Shown in pieces: positions 200 through 11,193 of a DNA stretch of 12,069 nucleotides. A program made the position numbers and the translations under genes. The notes beneath the pieces are model-generated. The model saw only the letters and a list, made by a program, of their open reading frames with translations. It ran no database searches and was not told the DNA's origin. How positions within the stretch are numbered: position 1 is the first letter of the stretch; each line of letters opens with the position of its first letter. The DNA comes from Candidatus Omnitrophota bacterium (lineage in GTDB: Bacteria > Omnitrophota > Koll11 > Zapsychrales > Fredricksoniimonadaceae). The stretch is from NCBI GenBank assembly GCA_023247595.1, contig JAHFGF010000031.1, positions 1-12,069 on the forward strand, in the 5' to 3' direction.

Positions 200-268
200 G
201 GATAGTTGATGGGTGACAGTTGATAGTAACCTTTAATTTTACTATCTCCAATCAACCATCCCCCATCT
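200..268. repeat. Heptamer fold-back element 1 (TGATAGT type)
   Basis: On the plus strand the left arm reads as consecutive 7-mers GGATAGT, TGATGGG, TGACAGT and TGATAGT (200-227). After an AT-rich loop the right arm holds ACTATCT, CCAATCA, ACCATCC and CCCATCT (241-268). The reverse complement of the right arm matches the left arm at about 21 of 29 positions without gaps, so the transcript could fold into an imperfect hairpin. It lies in the 102-bp gap between the two ketosynthase genes. There is no T-run typical of a strong terminator. It shares its design, but not its sequence, with four other elements here. Confidence 0.7.
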
Positions 269-281
269 CCTCTCAATCTTC

Positions 282-1547
282 TTACCCCTTAAATCTCTCC
301 AAAACCATCGCGGAATGAATCCCGGAAAAACCGCTGCTGGTTTTTAAAATACTGTCGACTTTTTTGGCGCGGGCTTGATTAGGAATATAATCCAAATCAC
401 AGGCCGGATCTTTTACTTCCTGATTAATCGTCGGTGGTAAAATGCCGCGTTCAAATATCATCGAACTTAACGCAAGCTCAATGCCGTTTGCGCCGGCCAA
501 AGGATGACCAATCATGGATTTAACAGAACTAATCGGAATTTTGTAGGCCATATCACCCAAAGCCATCTTGTACGCGCTTGTCTCAAACACATCGTTCTGA
601 CGCGTCGAGGATCCATGCGCGTTAACATAACTTAATTCAGATGGCTTAATCCCCGCTTCCTGCATCGCAAGGATAATTGAATCCGCCATCGCGTCACCTT
701 CCGGCGGAAGATCAGTCATATGAAAAGCATTGCAGGTCGTTCCGAATCCTTTGATCTCGCAATAAATGCGTGCCCCGCGTTTGAGCGCGTGCTCAAGCTC
801 TTCAACAATTAAAAGCCCAGCGCCTTCGGAAATGACAAACCCGTTGCGTTTCAGGTCGAAAGGGCGCGACGCCTTTTGAGGAAATTCATTATGAACTGAC
901 AAAACGTTCACCGTATCAAAAGCGCCAAACGTGATCGGCGTAATCGGCGCTTCGCTGGCGCCGGAGATCATGATATCCACGTCCCCATTTTGGATGGATT
1001 CAAACGAAAACCCGACGGAATCGGTTCCTGCGGTGCATCCGGTTGAGATTGTATTGCAAACACCCATTAAGCCATACTTAGCAGATATTTCACTCGAAGG
1101 AGTGTTAAACATGGCCGCGTCATATAAATCAGGACGAACCAAAGCCGGATTGATTGGTTTTGTTCCGCTATCAGTCACGAGCGCGAATTCTTCTTCCATG
1201 TATTTGGTTCCGCAAATGGCATTCGCCAACGAAACACCTATGCGTTCTTTGTCTATTTTATTTAAATTCAATTTTGAATCTTCCAGCGCCATACGCGCGG
1301 CCACGAGCGCAAACTGCACGTAACGGTCCATGCGCATCGATTCTTCCCAAGTGAGACCTAACTGAACCGGGTCAAAATCAGTGACCTGGGCGGCGATCTT
1401 GGTGTTAAACAGAGACACATCAAATTCCGTGACACGGCGGATTGCGGAAACGCCGCTAATCATGGCTTTATAACACGCTTCATTTCCAATGCCGTTCGGA
1501 GAAACGATCCCGACGCCAGTTATTACGACTCTACGCTTTTTATTCAT
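282..1547 (-). CDS. Beta-ketoacyl synthase, FabF / type II PKS KS-alpha-like
   Basis: A full-length 421-residue condensing enzyme of the KAS II / type II polyketide synthase class, which performs decarboxylative Claisen condensation on carrier-protein-bound chains. The nucleophile is Cys171 in STGCTAGTDSVG. The two histidines are His311 in NAHGSSTRQND and His348 in SMIGHPLAGANG, and Lys343 is also kept, so the catalytic set is complete. The wording around these sites (STGCTAG rather than TACATG; HGSSTRQNDVFETSAYK; RPFDLKRNGFVISEG) recalls KS-alpha subunits of aromatic type II PKSs more than housekeeping FabF. This is recognition by eye, not a phylogeny. The start at 1547 has a good GAGGAGA site at 1550-1556. 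The next gene is a second ketosynthase, which fits a KS-alpha/KS-beta arrangement. No acyl carrier protein is visible in the window. Confidence 0.93.
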   Translation of the reverse strand: MNKKRRVVITGVGIVSPNGIGNEACYKAMISGVSAIRRVTEFDVSLFNTKIAAQVTDFDPVQLGLTWEESMRMDRYVQFALVAARMALEDSKLNLNKIDKERIGVSLANAICGTKYMEEEFALVTDSGTKPINPALVRPDLYDAAMFNTPSSEISAKYGLMGVCNTISTGCTAGTDSVGFSFESIQNGDVDIMISGASEAPITPITFGAFDTVNVLSVHNEFPQKASRPFDLKRNGFVISEGAGLLIVEELEHALKRGARIYCEIKGFGTTCNAFHMTDLPPEGDAMADSIILAMQEAGIKPSELSYVNAHGSSTRQNDVFETSAYKMALGDMAYKIPISSVKSMIGHPLAGANGIELALSSMIFERGILPPTINQEVKDPACDLDYIPNQARAKKVDSILKTSSGFSGIHSAMVLERFKG

Positions 1548-1549
1548 AC

Positions 1550-1556
1550 TCTCCTC
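1550..1556 (-). promoter_or_regulatory. Shine-Dalgarno site of the KS-alpha-like gene
   Basis: GAGGAGA on the minus strand, two to three bases before the ATG at 1547; the core GGAG is about four bases away. It supports the chosen start and lies just downstream of heptamer element 2. Confidence 0.65.
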
Positions 1557-1563
1557 AAAATAA

Positions 1564-1640
1564 GTAAGGAGTAGGTAGTAAGCAGTATGTAGAAAGCGTT
1601 AACGTCTTCTACTTACTGCCTACTGTTTACTGCCTACTTA
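1564..1640. repeat. Heptamer fold-back element 2 (GTAGGCA type)
   Basis: Strict 7-bp phase on the plus strand: GTAAGGA, GTAGGTA, GTAAGCA, GTATGTA, GAAAGCG from 1564, a TTAACGT turn at 1599-1605, then CTTCTAC, TTACTGC, CTACTGT, TTACTGC, CTACTTA to 1640. The last five are near reverse complements of the first group, so the element folds on itself, with the right arm one unit longer. It fills most of the 90-bp gap between the NTF2-like gene and the ketosynthase. Its last three bases form the stop codon of the NTF2-like gene, so an insertion may have supplied that stop. Confidence 0.8.
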
Positions 1641-2111
1641 ATGTTTTAATGTCTCTTCCATTAAATTATTATGCGATCCAATGACCACCCAACGCTCCGG
1701 CTGTTTCTGCCAGGTCATAGTATACCGACGGATGACACGTTTGCCGCCTTCGGCGTTGACTTCAACGGTGAAAATCAAATATTGCACAATGGCAATGTCG
1801 CCATGCAGCTTCATATTGATCGGTCTAAGTTCCGCGATCGCAATATTCGTGCTCTGCGTCCAAAAACCTACCCATTTCTCAAGCCAGGGACGGTCAACTG
1901 GAATTGGACTTTCATGACCATATCCAATCATCTGCGGATGAATATATTTAATGAATTCATCGACTTTTTTGGTAATCAAAAGGTCCCAATGTTCGTCGAT
2001 GCATTTCCACACATCAAGCTGAGCTTGATTCCAAAATTCAGGAACCCACGACGTTCTTTTAAATCCCAACTCCTGAGCCGATTTGCCAGAGATTTCATAA
2101 GTTACTTTCAT
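1638..2111 (-). CDS. NTF2-like / SnoaL-type cone-fold protein
   Basis: A 157-residue protein of the nuclear transport factor 2 superfamily (SnoaL-like / DUF4440 type). Visible signs are an N-terminal helix with WKCIDEHWDLLITKKVDEFIKYIHPQ (about 35-60), then alternating strands ending in RRYTMTWQKQPERWVVIGSHNN (about 128-149), the typical last two strands of this cone-shaped fold. These proteins act as polyketide cyclases, ketosteroid-isomerase-like enzymes, or small-molecule binders; catalytic residues vary too much to assign one here. It lies directly upstream of the KS-alpha-like gene, so a role in folding or isomerising the ketosynthase product is possible but inferred. A GGAG site lies about five bases before the ATG. 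Its stop codon falls inside heptamer element 2, so the last residues may have been altered by that element. Confidence 0.75.
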   Translation of the reverse strand: MKVTYEISGKSAQELGFKRTSWVPEFWNQAQLDVWKCIDEHWDLLITKKVDEFIKYIHPQMIGYGHESPIPVDRPWLEKWVGFWTQSTNIAIAELRPINMKLHGDIAIVQYLIFTVEVNAEGGKRVIRRYTMTWQKQPERWVVIGSHNNLMEETLKH

Positions 2112-2127
2112 ATCAACTCCAGTTAAA

Positions 2128-2514
2128 TTATTTAATAAACCTAAGCGTTAGCGGATATCGAAACGACTTGCCTTCATTGGTCTGAATGCTGGCCATAATT
2201 ACCCATACAAGTTCTAAAATAGCCAGCAACCCTAACAAAACAAATCCAATTAAAAGCAAAACCAGAACCCAAGAAATAATGATCCAAATTCCCATAGATA
2301 TTTGAAAATTGACACTTTCTTTCCCCTGTTCATCGACGAACAAGGACACGTCTTTTTTCATCTGCCAGACGATTAGCGGGGCAATGATGGAACCAAACGG
2401 AATGATAAATCCAATCAAACTGGATAAATGACAAAACATCCCCCACTTACGGCTTTCGGAATCAACCACGAGTTTGGCATCAACCACTTTTGGATTTTGA
2501 AACTCTTCGGACAT
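2128..2514 (-). CDS. DUF4870 family membrane protein
   Basis: A 128-residue integral membrane protein. The family hallmark is clear: CHLSSLIGFIIPFGSIIAPLIVW (about 28-50), followed by a polar segment with FVDEQGKESVNFQIS (about 59-73), then a long hydrophobic stretch (about 74-108) that can hold two helices. This is the DUF4870 / Tic20-like pattern; no biochemical role is established for most members. It starts at the ATG at 2514 with a GGGGAG site four bases upstream. It sits between the ketopantoate-reductase-like gene and the NTF2-like gene in the same direction, with only 16 bases to the latter. Whether it takes part in the neighbouring biosynthesis or is a general membrane protein cannot be told. 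Confidence 0.85.
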   Translation of the reverse strand: MSEEFQNPKVVDAKLVVDSESRKWGMFCHLSSLIGFIIPFGSIIAPLIVWQMKKDVSLFVDEQGKESVNFQISMGIWIIISWVLVLLLIGFVLLGLLAILELVWVIMASIQTNEGKSFRYPLTLRFIK

Positions 2515-2562
2515 TTAACTCCCCAAAATAATTTAACTCTTTAAGACAGCAATACTCAAAAG

Positions 2563-3570
2563 CTATAAAACTGTTTTCGACAAAAATCTTCTCTTGATTT
2601 CTTCGGGATCAAAAAATCTTCCAGTCCGTTCAACTTCATGGACCATCTCAACGACACTTTCATTAAGCGGCACCGATGTCCTGAAGTGGCTCGCCAATTG
2701 AACAACTTCACCATTGATAAAATCAATCTCGCTTGTTTTTCCTCGAAGGATACTTTGCAAAATGGAACCGTACAGCGGCTCTTTGCTCAAATTTGTTAAC
2801 ACCTTTTGTATGACGCCAGCGCCCTGATCAAGCGGCATGGCTGACAAACCCAAAGTTCGTTCTTTCGGAAAATCAGGAAGCGACACCAATTCAATGTTGG
2901 CCGACTGAATAATGGCAATGCCTTCTTTCAACAGCATCAAACTCAAACGGCATAAATCCAAATCCGCAAACGTCTCCTGCATCGACTTCCCTGTTAACGC
3001 GGGAATGCAGTTATTGAAATTGATAAACAGCTTAAGCCATTTCATCCCCATGATGTCATTGACGACCGTAACCGAAAAGGCCTTAGAAAGGATATCTGCA
3101 ACGTCGTGAACCGACGGGTCATTGGGCACATATGGTTTACCAATAATCCACGGGCCTTCAAAATTAAATGTCACTTCACCTGGACGGACATAGGTTGAAC
3201 CAAACATGACAATACTGCTGATGATTTTATCCCGGTCGAAATGACCGCTTAAAATATTATCAGCCTGAACACCGTTTTGAGAGGTCACAACCAAACCCTC
3301 TTCTAAAAATTCGGCATTCTCTTGATAGGCCTCTTCCATGTCCTGCGTTTTTACGGTAAAGATAACAAGATCATACGGCCTATCCATTTTTGTTAACGCG
3401 CGAACCTTGAGGCATTCCTCGCCGCGTATGCCTTTGGTTTTAAGTCCGCCGCGATTAATAGCCTCGACCTGATCTTTGCGTCCAATCAAGGTCACGTCTT
3501 CGCCGGACTTAGCCAAATATCCCGCGACAACAGATCCAATCGCGCCAGCGCCGATAACTGCAATCTTCAT
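2563..3570 (-). CDS. Ketopantoate reductase family (PanE/ApbA) oxidoreductase
   Basis: A 335-residue NADP(H)-dependent 2-oxoacid reductase of the PanE/ApbA family. The N-terminal Rossmann domain opens IGAGAIGSVVAGYLA (6-20). Asn99 in TSQNGV matches the conserved active-site Asn. The C-terminal helical domain begins around KWLKLFIN, where Lys180 and Asn184 match the catalytic Lys and substrate-binding Asn of PanE. SEIDFINGEVV (280-290) is the family's C-terminal signature. All key residues appear present, so it should be active. In E. coli the enzyme makes pantoate for coenzyme A, but the family is broad, and no other pantothenate gene is near. In this neighbourhood it could reduce another keto group; that is inference. 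It starts 18 bases after the PCP_red gene stops, with a weak GGTGG site. Confidence 0.88.
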   Translation of the reverse strand: MKIAVIGAGAIGSVVAGYLAKSGEDVTLIGRKDQVEAINRGGLKTKGIRGEECLKVRALTKMDRPYDLVIFTVKTQDMEEAYQENAEFLEEGLVVTSQNGVQADNILSGHFDRDKIISSIVMFGSTYVRPGEVTFNFEGPWIIGKPYVPNDPSVHDVADILSKAFSVTVVNDIMGMKWLKLFINFNNCIPALTGKSMQETFADLDLCRLSLMLLKEGIAIIQSANIELVSLPDFPKERTLGLSAMPLDQGAGVIQKVLTNLSKEPLYGSILQSILRGKTSEIDFINGEVVQLASHFRTSVPLNESVVEMVHEVERTGRFFDPEEIKRRFLSKTVL

Positions 3571-3588
3571 AAAACCACCAAAAAATTC

Positions 3589-3861
3589 CTACGACTCATA
3601 GCTTTTGTATTCCAACTTGACTTCATCCATGATGGACACCATTAAACTATAAAAAGCCTTGGGCACTTCAGAAAGAAAAGCCTGGGATAAATCACGTTCT
3701 TCAATTTGCGAAGCCCCACGGGACTTGGCATTTAATTCCGCTTTTTTGCAAACAACTTGACGCGCGATTTCCCGATGAAAAATGGGAATCCGCGTTAACA
3801 TTTTATTGTATTTCTCAAGAGCCACCGGCTCCCATTTAATTTCGGTTTGTGTGTGAGGCAT
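3589..3861 (-). CDS. Stand-alone PCP_red domain protein
   Basis: A 90-residue protein consisting almost entirely of the small helical domain found at the C-terminus of the light-independent protochlorophyllide reductase B subunit (PCP_red). Recognised from the opening W-P-A-L pattern followed by RIPIFHREIARQ (24-35) and a later acidic helix start IEERDLSQAF (53-62); family members typically show a similar arginine/proline/aromatic core. It has no cysteine cluster or catalytic motif of its own. In the reductase this domain contributes to the substrate site; free-standing copies have no firm function. It lies directly downstream of a BchE-type B12/radical SAM gene. No bchN, bchL or other chlorophyll gene is present, so chlorophyll synthesis is not implied. 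It may be a small partner of the radical SAM enzyme. AAAGGAAG at 3867-3874 is a strong ribosome binding site five bases before the ATG. Confidence 0.75.
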   Translation of the reverse strand: MPHTQTEIKWEPVALEKYNKMLTRIPIFHREIARQVVCKKAELNAKSRGASQIEERDLSQAFLSEVPKAFYSLMVSIMDEVKLEYKSYES

Positions 3862-3866
3862 ATGCG

Positions 3867-3874
3867 CTTCCTTT
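3867..3874 (-). promoter_or_regulatory. Shine-Dalgarno site of the PCP_red gene
   Basis: AAAGGAAG on the minus strand, five bases before the ATG at 3861. It confirms the start of this short gene and lies just downstream of heptamer element 3. Confidence 0.7.
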
Positions 3875-3886
3875 AACTTAGGGTTG

Positions 3887-3935
3887 TACGTGGTACGTGT
3901 TACGTGTTACGTACCACATATCACGTACCACGTTA
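3887..3935. repeat. Heptamer fold-back element 3 (TACGTGT type)
   Basis: Seven consecutive 7-mers in unbroken phase: TACGTGG, TACGTGT, TACGTGT, TACGTAC, CACATAT, CACGTAC, CACGTTA. The first half is the inverse of the second. The best arm is a perfect 12-bp inverted repeat, ACGTGGTACGTG (3888-3899) against CACGTACCACGT (3922-3933), with a 22-bp loop that can itself pair partly. It fills most of the 76-bp gap between the radical SAM gene, which stops 3 bp away at 3938, and the PCP_red gene. It has no T-run after it in the direction of transcription. Confidence 0.88.
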
Positions 3936-3937
3936 AA

Positions 3938-5410
3938 TTATTTCACCATCGCAGGAACCCGTGAATTGGCTTCCCATTTGGAAATGTTGCTCATAAAATC
4001 CTTCACGCACAATTTGACGCGGATATCGTAATCGCTGTCCATGATGCGGTGGATGCGTTCCGGTTTGGAATAATACTCGCGCATGCACCACGAACCCAAA
4101 CGCCCGACATCTTCGACCGATAGAAAATCCGTCGGAATAACCGGATGCTGAAAATCCCAATCCTTCAAATTAATTTTATCAGGATCGATCCAGCCTTCTT
4201 TGATGGCATAACGCCAATCCGGTGAATTCGGGACGGGCGTTAAATAATCCAATGCAAAAACGTCAGGGTCGATCTGATCAGCGACGCGCAGGCGTTCCTT
4301 GATTTTCTCTTCGGTATCTTCACGCAGGCCGATAAGAACCGTACCAACGGTACCAATATTCTGCGCGCGCAGGATTTCGATGGTCCTTTTGATCTGATCC
4401 ATGGTGACACCTTTACCGCTTTTGACCAATTGCGCGTCGGATTCAACCTCGACGCCGGTCAAGGCCATGAATAAACCGGCCTTGCGCATCAAAGGCAGAA
4501 TATCCTGCTGCGATATCCATTGATCGGCCCGGCCTAAACAGACCCAGCCAATATTATTTCCGCGCTTAAGCTTTTCTTCGCAAAATTCAATCATGGCCTT
4601 GGTATCGCTGTTAAAGGCGTCATCCTGCATAACAACGGTTACAACACCGTATTGTTTTTCCAAAATATCTAATTCATCAACGATGCGCTTACCGCTTAAC
4701 CCGCGCCACGACGTAAAATCTTGAGCAGCGGTACGACTGTCATAAAGCGCCCACTCATAACAAAAATGGCATTTGCCCGGGCAGCCGCGGGATGTCATCA
4801 ATTCCGCGAACGGCTTCCAATAAGTATGTCCGACATATTTTTCCATGGGAAAAAGATCGTACGCAGGCATGGGAAGGACGTTAAGATCAGGAATCAAACT
4901 GCGATGAGGCCCAACAATAATAGTTGACGTATCCCGACGGGAAACAAGCCCATGGATATCGCGCATGTCTTTCTTTTTGTCTTTGAGATTATTCAAAAGT
5001 TCTTCAAGCGTAATTTCTGCTTCCCCTATTAAAATATAATCGATAGACGGGTTAAGCCTCATCTGGCGTTCATAATCCGCTGAATACCAAAGACCGCTGG
5101 CAACGGTAATGACCTGCGGCATTTTTGCTTTGATCAGACGCAAAGCCTCATTGAAATACCAAATGACCGCGGCTCCGCAGGTTGAAAAAAGTTGGTCGCC
5201 GACAAAAACCATATCAGGCTTGCTGGCCGCAACAGCGTCCATCATTTTGTCCCAGTCATAATCCAGCGCGCGGCAGTCTAATGCCTCAACTGTCGCGATA
5301 CCTTTGGTACGAACATACGCAGCTGCCTGCGCATGCATTTGATTCGCAGCCTTATGAAGCCCATGCGAATCCCAAGCCTTAATCGGTGGTGTTAGAAATA
5401 AGATTTTCAT
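3938..5410 (-). CDS. B12-binding radical SAM enzyme, BchE-like
   Basis: A 490-residue enzyme with an N-terminal cobalamin-binding-type Rossmann domain (about 1-140, starting MKILFLTPPIKAW) and a radical SAM core. The [4Fe-4S] motif is C210-PGK-C214-HF-C217, preceded by TSRG, the classic CxxxCxxC. The domain order and the LTPP opening match the BchE / HpnJ / oxidative-cyclase-like group, which acts on ring or lipid carbons via a 5'-deoxyadenosyl radical or methyl transfer. The classical DxHxxG cobalamin motif is not seen; this group often lacks it. The C-terminal part (about 420-490) is helical with no extra cysteine cluster. Its start overlaps the stop of the upstream membrane-protein gene by four bases (ATGA), and AGGAGA lies seven bases before it, so the two are probably co-translated. 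The substrate is unknown; downstream PCP_red and ketosynthase genes hint at a lipid, polyketide or tetrapyrrole-like product. Confidence 0.92.
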   Translation of the reverse strand: MKILFLTPPIKAWDSHGLHKAANQMHAQAAAYVRTKGIATVEALDCRALDYDWDKMMDAVAASKPDMVFVGDQLFSTCGAAVIWYFNEALRLIKAKMPQVITVASGLWYSADYERQMRLNPSIDYILIGEAEITLEELLNNLKDKKKDMRDIHGLVSRRDTSTIIVGPHRSLIPDLNVLPMPAYDLFPMEKYVGHTYWKPFAELMTSRGCPGKCHFCYEWALYDSRTAAQDFTSWRGLSGKRIVDELDILEKQYGVVTVVMQDDAFNSDTKAMIEFCEEKLKRGNNIGWVCLGRADQWISQQDILPLMRKAGLFMALTGVEVESDAQLVKSGKGVTMDQIKRTIEILRAQNIGTVGTVLIGLREDTEEKIKERLRVADQIDPDVFALDYLTPVPNSPDWRYAIKEGWIDPDKINLKDWDFQHPVIPTDFLSVEDVGRLGSWCMREYYSKPERIHRIMDSDYDIRVKLCVKDFMSNISKWEANSRVPAMVK

Positions 5411-5784
5411 AATTTTGTCTCCTGTTTCCTAGTATTTTCTGATTTAAACTGGTATATCAACGGTAAGACCATACAAATAATACAAAACACAACCCAAATT
5501 CCATCCACAATATTAGGATTACGATTTAGCATTATAAAAAATCCAAGTATCAATATAAGCATTGAAACAATTGGAGTCGCAAAAATTGCCCAATTTTTAT
5601 TCATAAAAAGGCCTATCGATAAACTTAACGATCCAATTGGTATAATCAAAAATAAAAGCATAAAATACGCATTCGGTCCTTTTGATAAAATAGGGATAAT
5701 CATCATGAGTGATCCCACTAATCCAAGTAGACCCATTATGAATTGGAGAATTCCAGGAATTATGAGTAGCGCTTTATTTTTCAT
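5407..5784 (-). CDS. Small four-helix membrane protein of unknown function
   Basis: A 125-residue hydrophobic protein I do not recognise. Four likely membrane helices are visible at about 4-32, 39-60, 65-86 and 95-113, with a basic N-terminus (MKNK) and a charged C-terminal tail (KSENTRKQETKL). There are no conserved catalytic motifs. The gene is clearly richer in A and T than its neighbours, and it has no clear ribosome binding site before the ATG at 5784, where the upstream sequence is nearly all A and T. Its stop overlaps the start of the radical SAM gene by four bases, suggesting translational coupling, but this may simply reflect local compaction. It could be a recent arrival in the operon. 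Confidence 0.7.
   Translation of the reverse strand: MKNKALLIIPGILQFIMGLLGLVGSLMMIIPILSKGPNAYFMLLFLIIPIGSLSLSIGLFMNKNWAIFATPIVSMLILILGFFIMLNRNPNIVDGIWVVFCIICMVLPLIYQFKSENTRKQETKL
5418..5423 (-). promoter_or_regulatory. Shine-Dalgarno site of the radical SAM gene
   Basis: AGGAGA on the minus strand, seven bases before the ATG at 5410. It lies inside the end of the upstream membrane-protein gene, which supports the ATGA overlap and fixes the radical SAM start. Confidence 0.75.
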
Positions 5785-5828
5785 TCAAATTTTTTTAAAT
5801 AAAAGTTTAGTTTTTGTGATCAAATACG

Positions 5829-5844
5829 TCAGTAAATATACTGA
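5829..5844. other. Short perfect hairpin in an AT-rich gap
   Basis: TCAGTA-AATA-TACTGA, a six-pair stem with a four-base loop, in the 81-bp AT-rich gap after the aldehyde dehydrogenase stop at 5866. It could be a weak transcription or processing signal. The following bases on the minus strand do not form an immediate U-run, so a classical terminator is not supported. The gap could also hold a promoter for the downstream genes, but no good -35/-10 pair is seen. Confidence 0.3.
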
Positions 5845-5865
5845 TAATACATTAAGTCGATTTAG

Positions 5866-7371
5866 TCAGTACCACGCCGAAACAAGCGGTTTTCCGCCGG
5901 GCGTCTGATCAATGCACACATGCTTGGAATTCGTAAATTCTAACAGGCCTTCTTTTCCCAACTCGCGTCCGAACCCGCTTTGCTTATATCCGCCAAATGG
6001 TGTTTCATTGGCGAAATTGCCGTACGTATTAATCCACACCGTTCCGCAACGCAACCGACGCGCGATGCGATTGGCTTTATCCATATCCTTGCTCCAGACC
6101 ATCGCCGCCAAACCGTATTTGGAATCATTGGCGATCGCAACCGCCTGCTCTTCTGTTTTGAACCGGATCACAGACAGAATGGGTCCAAAGGCCTCTTCCT
6201 GGGCGATCGTCATGGCATTGTCCACGTCAGTAAAAACAGTCGGTTCAATGTAAAATCCTTGGGCGATTGAGTCATCATCCAAATCTGGGACTTTTCCTCC
6301 GCATAAAAGCGTGGCCCCTTCTTTTTCACCGCGTTCGATAAAAGCCAAAAGTTGATCGCGATGCTGACGGCTGATCACAGGACCGAATTCCGTCTGAAAA
6401 TCGATCGCGTTACCAATGTGTAACGTTTTTGCGCGTTCAACCAATTTGCTGACAAAAGAATCATAGATTGGGTCTTCAACTAATAATCGTGATCCTGCGG
6501 CGCACATCTGCCCCTGATTCATAAAGATCGCGCTTAACGCGCCTCCCAAGGCCGCATCCATGTCGCAGTCAGCACAAACAATATTTGCGGACTTTCCACC
6601 CAACTCCAAAACAAGTTTCTTGGTTGTTGAGGAAGCCAGACGCATCACTTCTTTTCCGGTTTCGGTTCCGCCGGAGAAACTCACCATATCGACATCGGCA
6701 TGGGCAACTAATTCCACACCTGCCTGAGCGCGGCTACTGGTCAGAATACTAAGCGCCCCGTCGAATAATCCAGCCTGGGCGATCAACTGCCCCAAACGAA
6801 TAATCGATAAACTGGCGAGCGGTGAAGGCTTCAAGATAACATTGTTTCCGCATAACAATGCAGGTGCGATCTTCCACGCCGCCATGATGAGTGGATAATT
6901 CCACGGAATAATGGCCGCGACAACACCCACCGGTTCACGTTCAATCATCGACAAGGACGGCGAAGTCACCGCAATAAGCTCGTTATTTAAAAAATCAATG
7001 ACGTTACTAAAATGTTCAAACGTATCGGCAGCCGTCGGGATATCGATAAACGTGGTTTGCTTGATCGTCTTTCCGCAATCGAGCGATTCCAACTCAGCTA
7101 ATTCCTTGGCGTGTTCACGGATTAATTGCGCAACCGCCCTTAAATCACGTGTGCGCTTCTGAAAATCGATTTTGCCTTGACTCCACTGCACATCAAAATT
7201 CGTACGCGCTGCTGCGACAGCCTGATAAACATCTTCTGTTGAGGCATCCGAAATCCGCGCGATGACTTCCCCGGTTGAAGGGTTGATGGCATCGAAACAT
7301 TCGCCACCTCGAGCCGGAGTATTTTTACCGCCAATGAGCAAATCGAATGTTTGAATGGTTTGATTATTCAT
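5866..7371 (-). CDS. NAD(P)-dependent aldehyde dehydrogenase, betaine-aldehyde-DH type
   Basis: A 501-residue enzyme of the ALDH superfamily that oxidises an aldehyde to the acid. Numbered from the chosen ATG, it has the oxyanion Asn in PWNYP (Asn158), Lys181 in LKPSP, the general base Glu256 in LELGGK, the nucleophile Cys290 in NQGQMCAAGSR, and EEAFGP near 392-397. All catalytic residues are present. Where NAD-preferring relatives often have Glu after the cofactor lysine, this one has Pro (KPSP), so NADP use is possible. I chose the ATG at 7371, five bases after the upstream stop; a TTG at 7380 overlapping that stop would add three residues. It follows the aldolase-SCP2 gene, separated only by a small secreted-protein gene, so the aldehyde released by the aldolase is a natural substrate candidate (inference). 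Confidence 0.94.
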   Translation of the reverse strand: MNNQTIQTFDLLIGGKNTPARGGECFDAINPSTGEVIARISDASTEDVYQAVAAARTNFDVQWSQGKIDFQKRTRDLRAVAQLIREHAKELAELESLDCGKTIKQTTFIDIPTAADTFEHFSNVIDFLNNELIAVTSPSLSMIEREPVGVVAAIIPWNYPLIMAAWKIAPALLCGNNVILKPSPLASLSIIRLGQLIAQAGLFDGALSILTSSRAQAGVELVAHADVDMVSFSGGTETGKEVMRLASSTTKKLVLELGGKSANIVCADCDMDAALGGALSAIFMNQGQMCAAGSRLLVEDPIYDSFVSKLVERAKTLHIGNAIDFQTEFGPVISRQHRDQLLAFIERGEKEGATLLCGGKVPDLDDDSIAQGFYIEPTVFTDVDNAMTIAQEEAFGPILSVIRFKTEEQAVAIANDSKYGLAAMVWSKDMDKANRIARRLRCGTVWINTYGNFANETPFGGYKQSGFGRELGKEGLLEFTNSKHVCIDQTPGGKPLVSAWY

Positions 7372-7376
7372 AAACC

Positions 7377-7838
7377 TCAAGGATTCTGCGGTGGTATCTT
7401 ATGACTTTTTAAACTTTTGGAACAATCTTTGCCCGATGGACACAAATAAACCCGATAAACCCAATCATTCTTTCCACCACATCCAGCGTTCACAGTAAAT
7501 CTAAAATCATTGTCTCGAAAAAATTTATAATCAGGATGTTCAACACGTAAATCCAATGTGCCGCTCTCGCCTAATAACGAAAAATAAACTTTTTGTTCAT
7601 TGTTGAAAACAATTGGTATCGCTGGTAAATTCTTACGGCCCAAATAAACACTTGCCGTTTTAATGGATTCATTACTAATCGCATCACGGACGTCAACAGC
7701 TAAAGTCGGCGAATAAAATCCCATGCATGTGTAAATTTCCTCACATAGGACTTCACCTTGATAAAAAGTAACAACCAGCAGTAAAATGAGCGCGCTCGAA
7801 ATTGAGTTAACGTAATTTCTGAATTTCTTAATTTTCAA
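7377..7838 (-). CDS. Small secreted cysteine-containing protein, carboxypeptidase-regulatory-like
   Basis: A 153-residue protein with a basic N-terminus (KIKKFRNY), a hydrophobic stretch (about 13-27, including ALILLLVV), and a likely cleavage site near residues 28-33, so it is probably exported. There is a Cys at 32, but the preceding EVL is not a good lipobox. The mature part has five cysteines (32, 38, 120, 133, 139), suggesting disulfides in the periplasm or outside. DVRDAISNESIKTASVYLG (about 49-67) and LDLRVEHPDYKFF (about 95-107) recall the beta-sandwich of carboxypeptidase-regulatory-like domains; this is a weak match. The start is a TTG at 7838 with no clear ribosome binding site, and no in-frame ATG exists before the signal sequence. 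It is AT-rich and sits between aldolase and aldehyde dehydrogenase genes, where a secreted protein has no obvious job. Confidence 0.65.
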   Translation of the reverse strand: MKIKKFRNYVNSISSALILLLVVTFYQGEVLCEEIYTCMGFYSPTLAVDVRDAISNESIKTASVYLGRKNLPAIPIVFNNEQKVYFSLLGESGTLDLRVEHPDYKFFRDNDFRFTVNAGCGGKNDWVYRVYLCPSGKDCSKSLKSHKIPPQNP

Positions 7839-7859
7839 AATTTCAATCTGCCTGTTGAT

Positions 7860-8906
7860 TTATTCCACCGGCACTTCGGCCCACAGCTGAAAGATGCGAC
7901 TGCACGGCGCGTACCATTTGGAGATACGTGCAAAATCGCCGCGCAAATTCATTTTCTTTTGCGTTGTGGCCACAAACGGGTCGATTTCCCTATTAAAGAC
8001 AGCTTTCCAAACTTTTTCAGGGGCGGAAATAAGAAATTCCGCGTCCCCGTCATTGCCGACATCAATGATCTGTCCGTTTTGAAATCGAAAACTATATACT
8101 TTTCCAGTTTCATTGAGCATGACTGCCAAGTCCATATTCATTTGTGTCTTGGCCCCAAGTTCTTTTAAGGCCATGTCGTTATTTACAAGACGCACAATTT
8201 CATTGATCTGATCTTGAGCAAACAGCTTATATTTCCGCACGGGTATCCCAGCGTCCCTGTTCCCCTGCGTCCCAGTTTCTGGGGACTGGGGACTGGAAAC
8301 TGGGGAACCTGTGAACAATTTACTAATCGCCTCAATCTTCACCTGCTCCTCAAGCGTTTGAATAAAAAGGAAACAATCGAAAAGCGTTTGCCCCATGGCG
8401 ACCACGCCATGGTTTCGAAGAACCGCAATACTGTTGGATTTAAACGCCTCAATGAGCGGCGCGGCATCGGTGACGGATGGCGTTGTCTGAAGCAGGCCTC
8501 TGACTTCTCCGAGTGTAAACTTGGCTTCAAACGTGGACGGAACAAATTTTTCCTGACTTAAATAATACGCGTTGATATAGGTCGTATGGGTATGAATAAC
8601 TGCCTTAGCCTCAGGAAAATTCTTGTAAATTTCCGTATGCATGAGTTTTTCGGTGGATACTTTCCCACCCTCGAGGATTTCTCCATCCAGGCGCATCAAC
8701 ACCAGGTCGGATTCCTGCAGCATTCCAAGACATGTCCCGTGGGCTGTCAGCAAAATGACATCGTCTTGCGCGCGCGCGCTCAGATTACCATTAAGCGCGC
8801 TGGCTAAATCTTTTTCCCATAACAGCCGGCCGGTTGAAATCAACTGCTCTTTGAGCTGTTTAATTTTTTGCCGGTCTAATTTAATATTTTTTTGTGATGT
8901 ATTCAT
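7860..8906 (-). CDS. Class II aldolase/adducin domain fused to an SCP2-like domain
   Basis: A 348-residue two-domain protein. Residues 1-200 are a class II (zinc) aldolase of the FucA/AraD/adducin family: GNLSAR (40-45), the catalytic Glu86 in STEK, and metal-binding His105, His107 (IHTHT) and His166 (RNHGVV) are all present. Such enzymes cleave ketose-1-phosphates, such as fuculose-, 5-deoxyribulose- or methylthioribulose-1-phosphate, to dihydroxyacetone phosphate and an aldehyde. Residues about 230-345 resemble an SCP2 sterol/lipid-carrier domain (VNNDMALKEL, MLNETGKVYSFRF, FLISAPEKVWKAVF, MNLRGDF). Between them is a Ser/Pro-rich linker (about 200-222) encoded by a heptamer fold-back repeat. 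It overlaps the upstream isomerase-like gene by 26 bases. The fusion is unusual: SCP2 domains bind hydrophobic ligands, so it may bind a lipid-linked or apolar substrate, or serve as an oligomerisation module. The start at 8906 has only a weak ribosome binding site. Confidence 0.88.
   Translation of the reverse strand: MNTSQKNIKLDRQKIKQLKEQLISTGRLLWEKDLASALNGNLSARAQDDVILLTAHGTCLGMLQESDLVLMRLDGEILEGGKVSTEKLMHTEIYKNFPEAKAVIHTHTTYINAYYLSQEKFVPSTFEAKFTLGEVRGLLQTTPSVTDAAPLIEAFKSNSIAVLRNHGVVAMGQTLFDCFLFIQTLEEQVKIEAISKLFTGSPVSSPQSPETGTQGNRDAGIPVRKYKLFAQDQINEIVRLVNNDMALKELGAKTQMNMDLAVMLNETGKVYSFRFQNGQIIDVGNDGDAEFLISAPEKVWKAVFNREIDPFVATTQKKMNLRGDFARISKWYAPCSRIFQLWAEVPVE
8251..8308. repeat. Heptamer fold-back element 4 (GGGGACT type) inside a gene
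   Basis: On the plus strand GGGGACT, GGGGACT, GGAAACT, GGGGAAC run in strict 7-bp phase (8281-8308). The left arm carries inverse units, with GCGTCCC at 8251 and 8267 and AGTTTCT at 8274. A perfect 9-bp inverted repeat, CCCAGTTTC (8271-8279) and GAAACTGGG (8296-8304), closes a 16-bp loop. It lies within the coding region and is read in frame as a Ser/Pro/Gly-rich linker (SPVSSPQSPETG...) between the aldolase and SCP2 domains. Its base composition differs from the flanking coding sequence. Confidence 0.8.
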
Positions 8907-9366
8907 TTGCCAACCATTCGACCAAAGGACCGTAAACGCGCGTATCCTTCGCGGCTACGGCCTTACCATTAAATTTCAAAACATCTTCCTCCGGCGCCAA
9001 GAAACGTCGTCGCAAAGGCCCTTTGTAAAGATAAACCGGAACTCCATGCGTTTTCGCTAACACTCCCAAAATTAAAGACCCAATATCACATAACGCGCCG
9101 GAATCATCGTCATATTGATACGAAAGACGAACCTCTTTGACCAAATCCTTATAAAACAAAAATCCCGCCATATTATCGGCAATGATGGTGGGAATAATTT
9201 TACTTTTGGACAAAGTCTTGATCGTAGTCTGAGAAGAAAGCAAATCCGGACGCCCTTCCATCACAAAATAAGGTTCGCTTTTTTTAAAGGATTTTAAAAC
9301 ACCCTCATCAAAAATCCCGTGAACTAACCGGATGGACCGTTTTTTAAATGTCTGTGATTTTGTCAT
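8881..9366 (-). CDS. Half-length eIF2B/MtnA-family protein lacking the catalytic N-terminal half
   Basis: A roughly 161-residue protein matching only the C-terminal Rossmann-like half of the eIF2B-alpha / MtnA / ribose-1,5-bisphosphate isomerase family. The order MEGRPDLLSSQTTI, then IIPTIIADNMAGF, then ALCDIGSLILGVLAKTHGVPVYLY mirrors ETRPYFQGAKLT, QVTLVSDNAVAS and VANKIGSYQIAVCAKEFGVPVCVL in the gene just upstream. The catalytic GSDRSCANGD motif is replaced by YQYDDDSGALCD, and the domain bearing the catalytic Cys is missing, so independent isomerase activity is unlikely. It may be a regulatory or structural partner of the full-length isomerase, or a relic. I use the ATG at 9366, which follows the upstream stop by 16 bases. 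A TTG at 9381 preceded by GGGGG is an alternative, and longer starts would run into the upstream gene. It overlaps the aldolase start by 26 bases. Confidence 0.72.
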   Translation of the reverse strand: MTKSQTFKKRSIRLVHGIFDEGVLKSFKKSEPYFVMEGRPDLLSSQTTIKTLSKSKIIPTIIADNMAGFLFYKDLVKEVRLSYQYDDDSGALCDIGSLILGVLAKTHGVPVYLYKGPLRRRFLAPEEDVLKFNGKAVAAKDTRVYGPLVEWLANEYITKKY

Positions 9367-9382
9367 GCCGGCTTTTGACAAT

Positions 9383-10354
9383 TTACGCCCCCGCCTGAAT
9401 GGAAATTGTTTGGCTGATAAGTTCATGCGGCACCACATCAAATCCGGGATAAAAACCATTTACGGTTCCGGCGTGGATTTTCTTGCCTTCATAATTTAAT
9501 AATTCTTTGGCATCGCGCAATTCAATGGGAATATCGCTTCCTTTTTTAATGGTATTGGACGGCTGCGTCAGCACACAAACGGGTACTCCGAATTCTTTAG
9601 CGCAAACAGCAATTTGATAACTGCCAATTTTATTAGCCACATCACCGTTGGCACAGGAACGATCCGACCCGATGATGACACGGTTAACAAGCCCTTCCTT
9701 CATTAATGAGGCAACGGCATTATCCGAAACCAAGGTCACTTGAGCTCCCACCGCGTTTAATTCCCATGCTGTTAATTTCGCGCCTTGAAAATACGGCCTG
9801 GTTTCGGTGGCAAAAAATTTTATATTTTTATTTTCCTGTTTGCACAGTGCCGCGGCCATAGCCAACTCACCGCTGACGTTGCAATGCGTCAAAATGCTAT
9901 CACCATCCTGAATCATGGCAGCGATTTTTGAAACCCTTTCCAGACGTCGAAAACGAATCCCTTTAATAAAACCTGAGATATGCTTTTCAAGATAGCCGCG
10001 GATGTCGATATTTTCCTTAGCTGCCTTATGCGCCCAGCCGACTACAATGGAGGTCACATCAGAAAACGGAAACGTCGGACGGCTGGCATTAAGCGCTTTG
10101 GCGGTGTTTTCAACCATTTGCACCAATTGCTTATCAGCAGTATTTCGTTCCAACTCAATCAAAAACGTATTTAATACGACGAGAAATTGCCCAAAGGCGC
10201 GGGTTTTCATGTCACGAATGACCTTGACCGCTTCTGCCGTATTTTTAACAGGAATATATTTGACCTTGGCAGGAATTAAAGTCTCATCCAAGACAAATAA
10301 AACTTTATCCTTAATATACGCCGGCCAAAATAATGGTGATTCGGATGTTTTCAT
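9383..10354 (-). CDS. MtnA/eIF2B-family sugar-1-phosphate isomerase
   Basis: A 323-residue aldose-ketose isomerase of the family holding methylthioribose-1-phosphate isomerase (MtnA), ribose-1,5-bisphosphate isomerase and eIF2B-alpha. The catalytic Cys158 (LTHCNVSGELA) and Asp231 (GSDRSCANGDVANKIGSY) are both present, as are SRPT (Arg92) and ETRPYFQGAKLTAWEL with Gln190, positions known in MtnA to contact substrate, and the C-terminal FDVVPHELIS, like FDVTPPELI of MtnA. The MtnA phosphate-site motif RGAPAIG near residue 52 is changed to TRAFGQF, so substrate handling may differ. It should convert an aldose 1-phosphate to the ketose 1-phosphate, for example 5-methylthioribose-, 5-deoxyribose- or ribose-1-phosphate. 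The phosphorylase gene upstream would make such a substrate and the aldolase downstream would cleave the product. There is no clear ribosome binding site; a heptamer repeat ends just upstream. Confidence 0.86.
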   Translation of the reverse strand: MKTSESPLFWPAYIKDKVLFVLDETLIPAKVKYIPVKNTAEAVKVIRDMKTRAFGQFLVVLNTFLIELERNTADKQLVQMVENTAKALNASRPTFPFSDVTSIVVGWAHKAAKENIDIRGYLEKHISGFIKGIRFRRLERVSKIAAMIQDGDSILTHCNVSGELAMAAALCKQENKNIKFFATETRPYFQGAKLTAWELNAVGAQVTLVSDNAVASLMKEGLVNRVIIGSDRSCANGDVANKIGSYQIAVCAKEFGVPVCVLTQPSNTIKKGSDIPIELRDAKELLNYEGKKIHAGTVNGFYPGFDVVPHELISQTISIQAGA

Positions 10355-10363
10355 AATTAGATG

Positions 10364-10414
10364 TGACTGAAGACTAAAGACCTAAGACCATAGACTATTT
10401 GTCTTCGGTCTTTT
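10364..10414. repeat. Heptamer fold-back element 5 (AGACNNN type)
   Basis: Five 7-mers in unbroken phase on the plus strand: TGACTGA, AGACTAA, AGACCTA, AGACCAT, AGACTAT (10364-10398). After a short turn come two inverse units, GTCTTCG and GTCTTTT (10401-10414). AAAGACC (10376-10382) pairs with GGTCTTT (10407-10413). The element fills nearly all of the 62-bp gap between the phosphorylase and isomerase genes. A hairpin followed by a T-run would form only on the plus strand, where no gene reads, so a terminator role for this operon is doubtful. Confidence 0.8.
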
Positions 10415-10416
10415 TC

Positions 10417-11193
10417 TTATTTGCTTTCAAGTTTCTTAATTAATTCCAACGCAATCGTAATAAGCGCGCCTTCCGACATGTAATAATCCGGATTCATAAA
10501 ACCCATTTCACCGGTCATGATATTGTCGCTAACCGCAAGAATGGACACCGCCGGGATTTTATAAAGTTGGGCGATTGTTAAAAAGGCTGATGAAACCATG
10601 TCCACGCCAATGGCTCCTTGAGAAATGGCCTTATTCACATGCTCCTTGGTTTCCCGTAAAATCGCATCAGTTGTCCAGACTTTTCCTTCATGAACTTTAT
10701 TGCCCATCGGAGCAACTGCTTGTTGAGCAATTTTTGTGATGGTTTGTGTAAGGGCCGCATCCGGTTTAGTTTCGAAATCCTGTCCGACATAATAAGGCGT
10801 TACGCCGTCTCCTCTGACGCATCCTGTGGCAACAATCAAATCTCCAATTTTAACATCACTGCTTAACGCGCCGCAGCTGCCAATCCGAATTAAACATTTA
10901 ACCTGGGCATTACAGAGAATTTCCGTCGTAATGGACGTATCCGCCGCGAAGCGCCCGCCGTTAATGCCGGTGACTTTAACCCCCGCATAAGTGCCCGTAT
11001 ACATGGTGTATTCCATAAAGGAAAAATTCTTAACGGGACTTTCAATTTTTTTCATAAGTCCATCCAAACGTTCTTTAGGCCCGGGCACAATGGCGTATTT
11101 CCCGACGTCCTGAGGACGAAGCTGAACCATTCCCATCAAATCTTTTCCTGTCATATGAATATCGCGTTGCATAATTTCTGTTTGTGTCGGCAT
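10417..11193 (-). CDS. Nucleoside phosphorylase family I (PNP/MTAP/UP-like)
   Basis: A 258-residue enzyme of the PNP_UDP_1 (NP-I) family, which splits a nucleoside with phosphate into a free base and a pentose 1-phosphate. Visible family marks are the phosphate loop region PGPKERL (37-43), IRIGSCGAL with the phosphate-binding Arg103, RGDGVTPYY (127-135), TTDAILRE (174-181) and VSDN with Asp223, the general acid typical of purine-specific members. The ribose-binding motif, EMExA in purine nucleoside phosphorylases, reads DMVSS (198-202); the Glu that usually holds the ribose 2' and 3' hydroxyls is Val200, so sugar recognition may be altered. It starts at the ATG at 11193, with AAAGGG five bases upstream, 13 bases after the ligase gene. 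It precedes the isomerase gene, consistent with feeding pentose 1-phosphate into it. Confidence 0.9.
   Translation of the reverse strand: MPTQTEIMQRDIHMTGKDLMGMVQLRPQDVGKYAIVPGPKERLDGLMKKIESPVKNFSFMEYTMYTGTYAGVKVTGINGGRFAADTSITTEILCNAQVKCLIRIGSCGALSSDVKIGDLIVATGCVRGDGVTPYYVGQDFETKPDAALTQTITKIAQQAVAPMGNKVHEGKVWTTDAILRETKEHVNKAISQGAIGVDMVSSAFLTIAQLYKIPAVSILAVSDNIMTGEMGFMNPDYYMSEGALITIALELIKKLESK

Follow-up and report, generated by a model that had tools for sequence, protein, structure and literature searches.

Heptamer fold-backs of an Omnitrophota contig as probable gene-less forms of a minute mobile element with an intervening-sequence protein gene

A 12,069-nucleotide stretch of DNA from a Candidatus Omnitrophota bacterium (assembly GCA_023247595.1, contig JAHFGF010000031.1; hereafter the window) contains five short sequences in which tandem 7-bp units turn into their own approximate reverse complements, each built from a different heptamer, and this raises the question of what kind of element keeps its architecture whilst changing its letters. 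Our answer is that these fold-backs are likely to be gene-less members, resembling miniature inverted-repeat transposable elements (MITEs), of a family of minute mobile elements whose full form is a PF05635 gene between inverted arms of such units. PF05635 is the 23S rRNA intervening-sequence protein (IVP), also called S23p or ‘four helix bundle protein’, a gene that did not figure in the preliminary description of the window, where a nuclease, a transposase of the repetitive extragenic palindrome (REP) type or a reverse transcriptase had been put forward as possible partners.

The fold-backs were located using a scan blind to the letters of the unit, in which four units per arm are followed by their own reverse complement and the score is the fraction of agreeing cells out of 8 × period; periods of 5–11 were scanned over the window, those above 8 being scored with three units per arm. 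At period 7 the scan returned exactly five matches, with scores of 0.75–0.84 (Table 1), and these are the five fold-backs of the preliminary description and no others. The best score at periods 5, 6, 8, 9, 10 and 11 was at most 0.72, and 20 dinucleotide shuffles of the window gave no period-7 fold-back at all. Tandem Repeats Finder (TRF) detected parts of four of the five, and a general inverted-repeat search recovered two of them as ordinary inverted repeats.

Loci of relatives (L numbers; G numbers denote their genomes) were gathered with the radical SAM protein encoded at 3938–5410 of the window as query, giving 33 loci at 75–86% identity, of which 30 bear the label Omnitrophota or Omnitrophica. 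At a score of at least 0.80, 494 kb of relatives' DNA contain 37 period-7 fold-backs, compared with 1, 0, 3 and 1 at periods 5, 6, 8 and 9, and 400 kb of G001 hold 76 at period 7 and none at periods 6 or 8, these being contigs already known to carry heptamer matches and hence a biased sample. Another sampling bias is that L137–L139 are IVP-bearing contigs. The preliminary description was to fall if no excess over shuffled sequence appeared; such an excess is present in the relatives and in the window, with several relatives having no fold-back in the stretches sampled. The heptamer families are genome-specific: a single heptamer pattern has 169 matches in G001, 20 in G003 and 0–4 in each of eight others (overlaps counted), and its reversed control has 2 in G001, but 35 in G005.

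Within G001, 78 elements scoring at least 0.79 form 12 heptamer clusters, and polarity, that is, which strand of the unit comes first, is fixed per cluster (24/24, 9/9, 8/8, 7/7, 6/6, 6/6 and 4/4), with one cluster mixed at 6:3. About two of the seven positions in a unit are degenerate, and the length of the arms, on either side, falls within 28–33 nt for 91 of 129 elements, a range of which only the upper end is free since the floor of the scanner lies near 28. In at least one family, that of TTAAACA, the loops are alike between copies as judged by eye. The proposal that the copies do not align to one another and would escape similarity searches holds for the five of the window and between heptamer families. 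It does not hold within one genome, where a 3.2-kb stretch of L012 (G001) has 66 matches, itself included and the two strands of one place counted apart, the others being 41–111 bp long and 70–93% identical.

The order of genes around the window is widely common to the relatives, so that orthologous gaps can be compared. The gap of fold-back 2 contains no heptamer fold-back in L033, L032 and L013 and a different heptamer in L008; that of fold-back 3 contains fold-backs of other heptamers in, for example, L003, L009, L012, L016 and L023 and none in, for example, L001, L033, L010 and L015; and the place of fold-back 4 within an aldolase-like gene is occupied by other heptamer arrays in L018 and L019 (by the scan) and in L020, L016 and L003 (by eye). 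Among three loci that are ~82% identical in DNA, one and the same gap shows two different heptamers and one absence. The fold-back gaps show turnover, not site-wise conservation, and the finding that had been named as fatal to an element family, namely regulatory hairpins conserved at the same sites, was not encountered at the gaps compared, which in relatives are empty or hold a different heptamer. The view of a single architecture with a changing heptamer, patchy at orthologous gaps and akin to the short tandemly repeated repetitive (STRR) sequences of cyanobacteria, finds support.

When inverted arms of G001 were paired over distances of up to 3 kb, three high-scoring pairs emerged, 416–445 bp apart, and each of them encloses one small PF05635 gene. 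Taking the gene as the starting point, inverted tandem arms with a score of at least 0.77 were found at 23 of 30 IVP loci, from 13 genomes (18 of period 7, four of period 8 and one of period 9), the 30 being a program-chosen subset of 72 PF05635 matches; two further loci at 0.768 make this 25 of 30, with 20 of period 7, at that cut-off. None of 60 random windows of the 13 IVP genomes had arms at 0.77 or above. Fresh loci from other genomes of the phylum (27, program-chosen from matches in 68 genomes, the random-window control belonging to the first draw) gave arms in 25 cases, 24 of period 7 and one of period 8, with one more at 0.768. The full element is ~410–510 bp long and consists of one PF05635 gene between inverted arms, each of about four tandem units of 7 bp (in some 8 or 9 bp), and the gene-less form is made up of the two arms with a loop that is mostly shorter than 40 nt.

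As regards the protein family, all 23 aligned IVP proteins match PF05635 at E ≤ 0.001, and 71 of the 72 matches exceed the curated cut-off, the remaining one being a 114-bp piece at a contig end. Against known structures, the IVP profile matches 2gsc (XCC0516; E = 1.6e-37) and 2rld (E = 1.8e-18), five chains each. A survey of 117 genomes of the phylum, including three from the sets above, showed PF05635 in 68, often in several copies per Omnitrophota genome, compared with none of 14 control genomes. At one locus (L097, in G017) the IVP gene is flanked, as seen by eye, by longer and irregularly spaced repeats with a GACCACC core instead of units of 7–9 bp, which may represent another type of arm. 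Upstream of two IVP genes (L012 ~12490–12545 and L038 ~9535–9575) a run of C can, as judged by eye, pair with a run of G (CCCC...AAAAAG...GGGG), a pairing that might hide the ribosome-binding site and so allow self-control of IVP.

The IVP gene is nearly always read in the sense of its surroundings. It shares its strand with the upstream neighbour at 28 of 29 and, in a second set, 25 of 27 loci, and 13 of 15 plasmid loci (below) have it on the same strand as both of the annotated neighbours; ordinary neighbouring genes in these genomes are co-directional in 83–87%, and half would be expected if insertion were random. Either antisense copies are not retained, because expression depends on read-through, or the element inserts via the transcript.

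The same arrangement occurs outside the Omnitrophota. One IVP used as query against a plasmid collection gave 17 records, all cyanobacterial, of which 15 were taken (H8 and H13 were omitted as near-duplicates), and all 15 loci have arms, 13 of period 7 and two of period 8; one of 58 random plasmid windows reaches 0.768 and none is higher. Two pairs, L140/L141 and L146/L147, represent one insertion each, which leaves no more than 13 independent plasmid cases. In some of them the IVP gene stands inside a CRISPR-cas operon, at cas6–cas4 (L142, L143) or at cas10/cmr2–cmr3 (L148), and since these are by their arms inserted elements, their presence there does not have to imply a role in CRISPR. IVP had no match in phage records, nor, with one protein as query, in viral contigs.

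Fourteen related plasmids were compared for empty sites, and one site, termed B, gives the clearest picture of an insertion. It is empty in plasmids L159 and L160 (...AAAAAGTAATTAACAAAT...) and filled in two plasmids that are ~98% identical around it by a gene with its arms, 428 and 414 bp long, with GTAAT at both ends, the one case of an apparent target duplication; the 14 bp by which the two insertions differ are two heptamers. At the same site L162 (Brasilonema, ~82% identical) carries a gene-less fold-back of the site-B heptamer, and L158 has one arm and an apparent truncated remnant of IVP.

The arm units of the gene-carrying elements could be compared with those of the gene-less fold-backs for 20 period-7 IVP arm sets (the two at 0.768 included), 15 of which are in genomes with sampled fold-backs. 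At a cosine of at least 0.94 the arm unit has a match in its own genome in 10 of 15 sets and in other genomes in 5 of 120 comparisons; at 0.80 or above the figures are 10 of 15 and 22 of 120. Ends in common with a gene-carrying partner in the same genome, a MITE-like trait, are therefore found for 10 of the 15 sets at the stricter threshold, and the polarity of the arm unit agrees with that of the matching fold-backs in all 10. Three of the 15 sets are in G001, where an own-genome match is easier because 94 fold-backs were sampled there. Protein identity and unit similarity are correlated across 31 elements (Mantel r = 0.41, 0 of 2000 permutations as high), and this persists for pairs under 60% identity (r = 0.22, again 0 of 2000).

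Fold-backs and IVP genes also tend to occur in the same genomes. At a cut-off of 43/56 cells (0.768), 12 genomes with at least three IVP matches hold 136 fold-backs in ~1,065 kb, 97 of them in G001, and four genomes with no or one weak IVP match hold none in ~330 kb. One scan of all 17 genomes gave 141 fold-backs at period 7, 13 at period 6 and 12 at period 8; six of those 12 are in G012, whose IVPs have arms of 8-bp (L081) or 9-bp (L094) units.

Together these observations suggest a family that is probably mobile, for which the following course of events can be proposed. IVP would bind the arm units, in RNA or in DNA, as the covariation of unit and protein would lead one to expect, and the element would insert between co-directional genes, a preference suggested by the nearly constant sense orientation of the IVP gene, and be read through from the host operon. 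Its RNA would form a hairpin open to cutting by RNase III, as in the intervening sequences (IVSs) of 23S rRNA. In this manner IVP would bring about the spread of its own element and, in trans, that of gene-less copies with matching units, whose heptamer type is that of the IVP. On the tests described below, neither a Y1 transposase nor an RVT_1 reverse transcriptase has to be the enzyme that does the cutting and joining of DNA.

Several results weigh against this account. Only site B is clean; at sites A, C, D, E and F the plasmids agree roughly in place, between neighbouring genes, and the borders are blurred. No signal of target-site duplication emerged from 141 and 129 Omnitrophota fold-backs in two tests, the count for 4-mers being 97 of 141, where shuffles averaged 88.6 and 16 of 200 were as high, and the second test (129) giving a like result. 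Five of the 15 arm sets are without a close unit match among the sampled fold-backs of their own genome, and the covariation of arm and protein, which fits recognition, may equally come from co-inheritance of gene and arms. G007 (locus L016) has five fold-backs in 101 kb and no PF05635 match, even with a wider profile, for which an incomplete assembly, loss of IVP or another partner are possible reasons. Conversely, G017 has IVP and one fold-back in 161 kb, G092 has IVP and six fold-backs in 400 kb (compared with four and three at periods 6 and 8), and G010, G011 and G016, IVP genomes as well, have none in 14–20 kb; an IVP gene is not enough for many copies. We know of no nuclease activity of PF05635 proteins, and the IVP evidence comes from the genomes of relatives and from plasmids, none of it from the window's own species.

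As an alternative, the fold-backs could originate in place, through slippage of the polymerase and self-priming of hairpins in steps of 7 nt, and the IVP genes would have landed in the loops later. Slippage does seem to act on the arms, since these differ by whole heptamers, as in the two insertions at site B, and may be homogenised separately: in one fold-back (L019 7143–7203) one arm reads, by eye, CACCAGT and the other CCCCAGT, which points to slippage within each arm. An origin in place is harder to reconcile with the empty site B, which has no heptamer seed, with the common loop sequence and polarity of copies of one family, with the narrow range of arm length (bearing in mind the scanner floor) and with the covariation of unit and IVP protein, and we consider it improbable. 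A function as regulatory hairpins, terminators or mRNA stabilisers, kept by selection at the individual sites, would account for the good RNA folding (Table 1) and for the position between stop and next start, at medians of 13 and 20 bp in the tandem gaps of G001. By the same crude gene calls, 77 of the 97 fold-backs of G001 are intergenic, compared with 15% of the sequence, but 20 lie mostly in called ORFs (open reading frames), and convergent gaps are not enriched (5 of 72, or 7%, equal to the background). With orthologous gaps that are empty or hold unrelated heptamers in addition, this explanation has very little to recommend it.

A more serious competitor is that another transposase, of the host or co-resident, recognises the hairpin and moves the elements, the IVP gene being a passenger or an accessory. 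To our knowledge the small helical bundle of IVP lacks a catalytic site, and MITE-like copies usually depend on a transposase acting in trans. It is nevertheless IVP that is found between the arms, and neither of the two families tested, PF01797 and PF00078, tracks the fold-backs. The REP-type (Y1) transposase PF01797 was rejected as a general partner: although 14 of 17 genomes have a match, it is missing from G005, G009 and G015, of which G005 and G015 carry fold-backs, and G008 has four matches and no fold-backs in 77 kb. The reverse transcriptase PF00078 likewise failed as a general partner, with matches in three of the 17 genomes and none in the other 14, G001 included. Neither of these two enzymes suggested earlier thus shows the expected association, and we regard another transposase as rather unlikely, if less so than an origin in place.

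The preferred account, in which IVP spreads its own element and the gene-less copies, allows a further and more speculative step. IVP elements might form a class of mobile elements without a transposase, in which a pentameric ring reads one unit per subunit, and STRRs, the TAACTGA repeats discussed below and the heptamers of IVSs might all be footprints of the IVP family. An IVP relative from X. campestris is described in part of PMC4990558 as a toroidal homopentamer. By analogy with TRAP, a ring that reads RNA triplets, the protein would set the length of the unit (7, 8 or 9) and a narrow number of units, and the letters of the unit would drift with the protein. The idea that unit length is set by protein clade did not come out cleanly in an IVP tree (built without L082 and L147, the latter a near-copy of L146), in which 8-bp arms are scattered, with weak support, among 7-bp groups; since some elements with 8-bp arms have close relatives with 7-bp arms, the unit length must allow at least some variation. 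We hold this wider reading to be doubtful, though worth stating.

The fold-backs of the window are listed in Table 1. As fold-back 4 lies inside an ORF, not all of them are intergenic, and fold-back 5 is by eye lopsided, with about five units on the left and two or three on the right. An Rfam search of the window, L012, L038 and L050 gave three tRNAs only, with no family at the fold-backs and no rRNA in the window.

Table 1. Heptamer fold-backs of the window, their scan matches, arms and surroundings
Feature	Position	Strand	Period-7 scan match	Score	Arms	Also detected by	RNA folding z-score against shuffles	Surroundings
Fold-back 1	201..267	.	201–276	0.79	201–228 (GATAGTT-type), 240–267 (AACTATC-type), by eye		-2.94	left of fabF-like gene 282–1547(-)
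Fold-back 2	1563..1639	.	1570–1639	0.84	~1563–1595 (AGTAAGG/AGTAGGT), 1605–1639		-5.86	between fabF-like gene 282–1547(-) and ORF 1638–2111(-)
Fold-back 3	3886..3934	.	3883–3938	0.84	3886–3910 (GTACGTG/TTACGTG), 3911–3934	ordinary inverted-repeat pair	-3.28	3' of B12-binding radical SAM gene 3938–5410(-)
Fold-back 4	8247..8306	.	8245–8306	0.75	~8247–8277 (CCCAGTT-type), 8279–8306 (CTGGGGA)	TRF	-2.04	in frame within open ORF 7860–8906(-), 348 aa, behind its class II aldolase-like first part
Fold-back 5	10365..10417	.	10370–10428	0.75	units 10365–10397 (GACTGAA/GACTAAA), short reverse arm 10400–10417	TRF	-2.77	between ORFs 9383–10354(-) and 10417–11193(-)

Palindromic inserts of another kind, not built from heptamers, were seen in two of the relatives' loci: 42 bp at ~4520 and 63 bp at ~12482 in L020, and 90 bp at ~5935 in L019 and ~6832 in L020. 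Their lengths are multiples of 3, they apparently lie in coding sequence, and of three related loci one or two lack them.

How do these elements compare with systems already described? The STRRs of cyanobacteria are described as direct tandem heptamer repeats, many per genome, and are not known to have a linked gene. They share with the fold-backs the 7-bp tandem unit and the high number per genome, and the arms of the cyanobacterial plasmid IVP loci resemble STRR heptamers; the difference is that here the arms are inverted and tied to IVP, the cyanobacterial evidence being the plasmid IVP loci and the dispersed heptamers being those of Omnitrophota. Direct repeats of TAACTGA occur in Beggiatoaceae, Cyanobacteria and Bacteroidetes, mostly intergenic and patchy across phyla, with indels between two strains mostly in 7-nt steps and, according to the parts of PMC4679880 available, no known mechanism; the same source reports a 2007 survey in which heptanucleotide repeats were the most abundant class in most genomes and polymerase slippage was suggested, and its main text, as available, does not mention ‘S23’ or ‘four helix’. 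Unlike the fold-backs, the TAACTGA repeats consist of a single heptamer in direct orientation.

REPINs, paired REP sequences that form hairpins, depend on a single-gene partner, the RAYT transposase. They are non-autonomous and reach high copy numbers (PMC3116915, in part), as do the fold-backs, whose arms are instead made of tandem heptamers, vary in sequence between families and show no link to a Y1 transposase. A likeness of PF05635 to Avd of the diversity-generating retroelements has been noted (PMC10053308, in part), and the bAvd model PF22296 matches 17 of our 23 IVP proteins with E ≤ 0.001, its top score of 39.6 bits falling slightly short of the cut-off of 40; these retroelements differ from the present case in that 14 of 17 genomes have no RVT_1 match. 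No link of PF05635 or S23 to heptamer fold-backs or STRRs appeared among the literature matches listed (titles and openings of abstracts, subscription journals being mostly outside the coverage), nor in the available parts of PMC5041132, PMC8161180, PMC5524665 and PMC10910872.

The nearest relatives are the IVSs of 23S rRNA, insertions in rRNA genes, some of them, for example in Coxiella and Leptospira, with an S23p ORF, which are sporadically distributed and transcribed with the host gene and whose mobility, proposed in 1993, has long been suspected (PMC4990558, in the parts available, as for what follows). The Coxiella IVS is 428–444 nt long and has a terminal stem of 28 bp, and its ORF is preceded by two or three heptamers in tandem and a further, degenerate one; the heptamers are noted there without explanation, and the function of the IVP/S23 proteins is given as unknown. 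Like the IVSs, our gene-carrying elements have a PF05635-type ORF, in most cases between inverted ends, a feature that the gene-less elements of the window lack by definition. They differ in site, lying between or in protein genes (in the window between or in protein ORFs, in the plasmids between protein genes) and not in rRNA helices 9, 25 or 45, and in having about four tandem units of 7, 8 or 9 bp in both arms, many gene-less copies and one paired empty and filled site. Because the defining insertion site in a 23S (or 16S) rRNA gene is absent, we class them as IVS-like and not as 23S IVSs.

This comparison brings together two orphan subjects, the heptamer repeats and the IVP proteins, which a probably mobile family would tie to each other: gene and arms would be the element and the repeats its gene-less copies, giving a role to both. 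The function of IVP becomes testable, since the arms of a given IVP gene spell out the heptamer that its protein would be expected to bind, and if IVP with host factors alone does move DNA, these would be among the smallest mobile elements. Some of the puzzling heptamer repeats of cyanobacteria and other bacteria could find an explanation in the same family, of which the IVSs in rRNA, as our comparison suggests, would be one niche.

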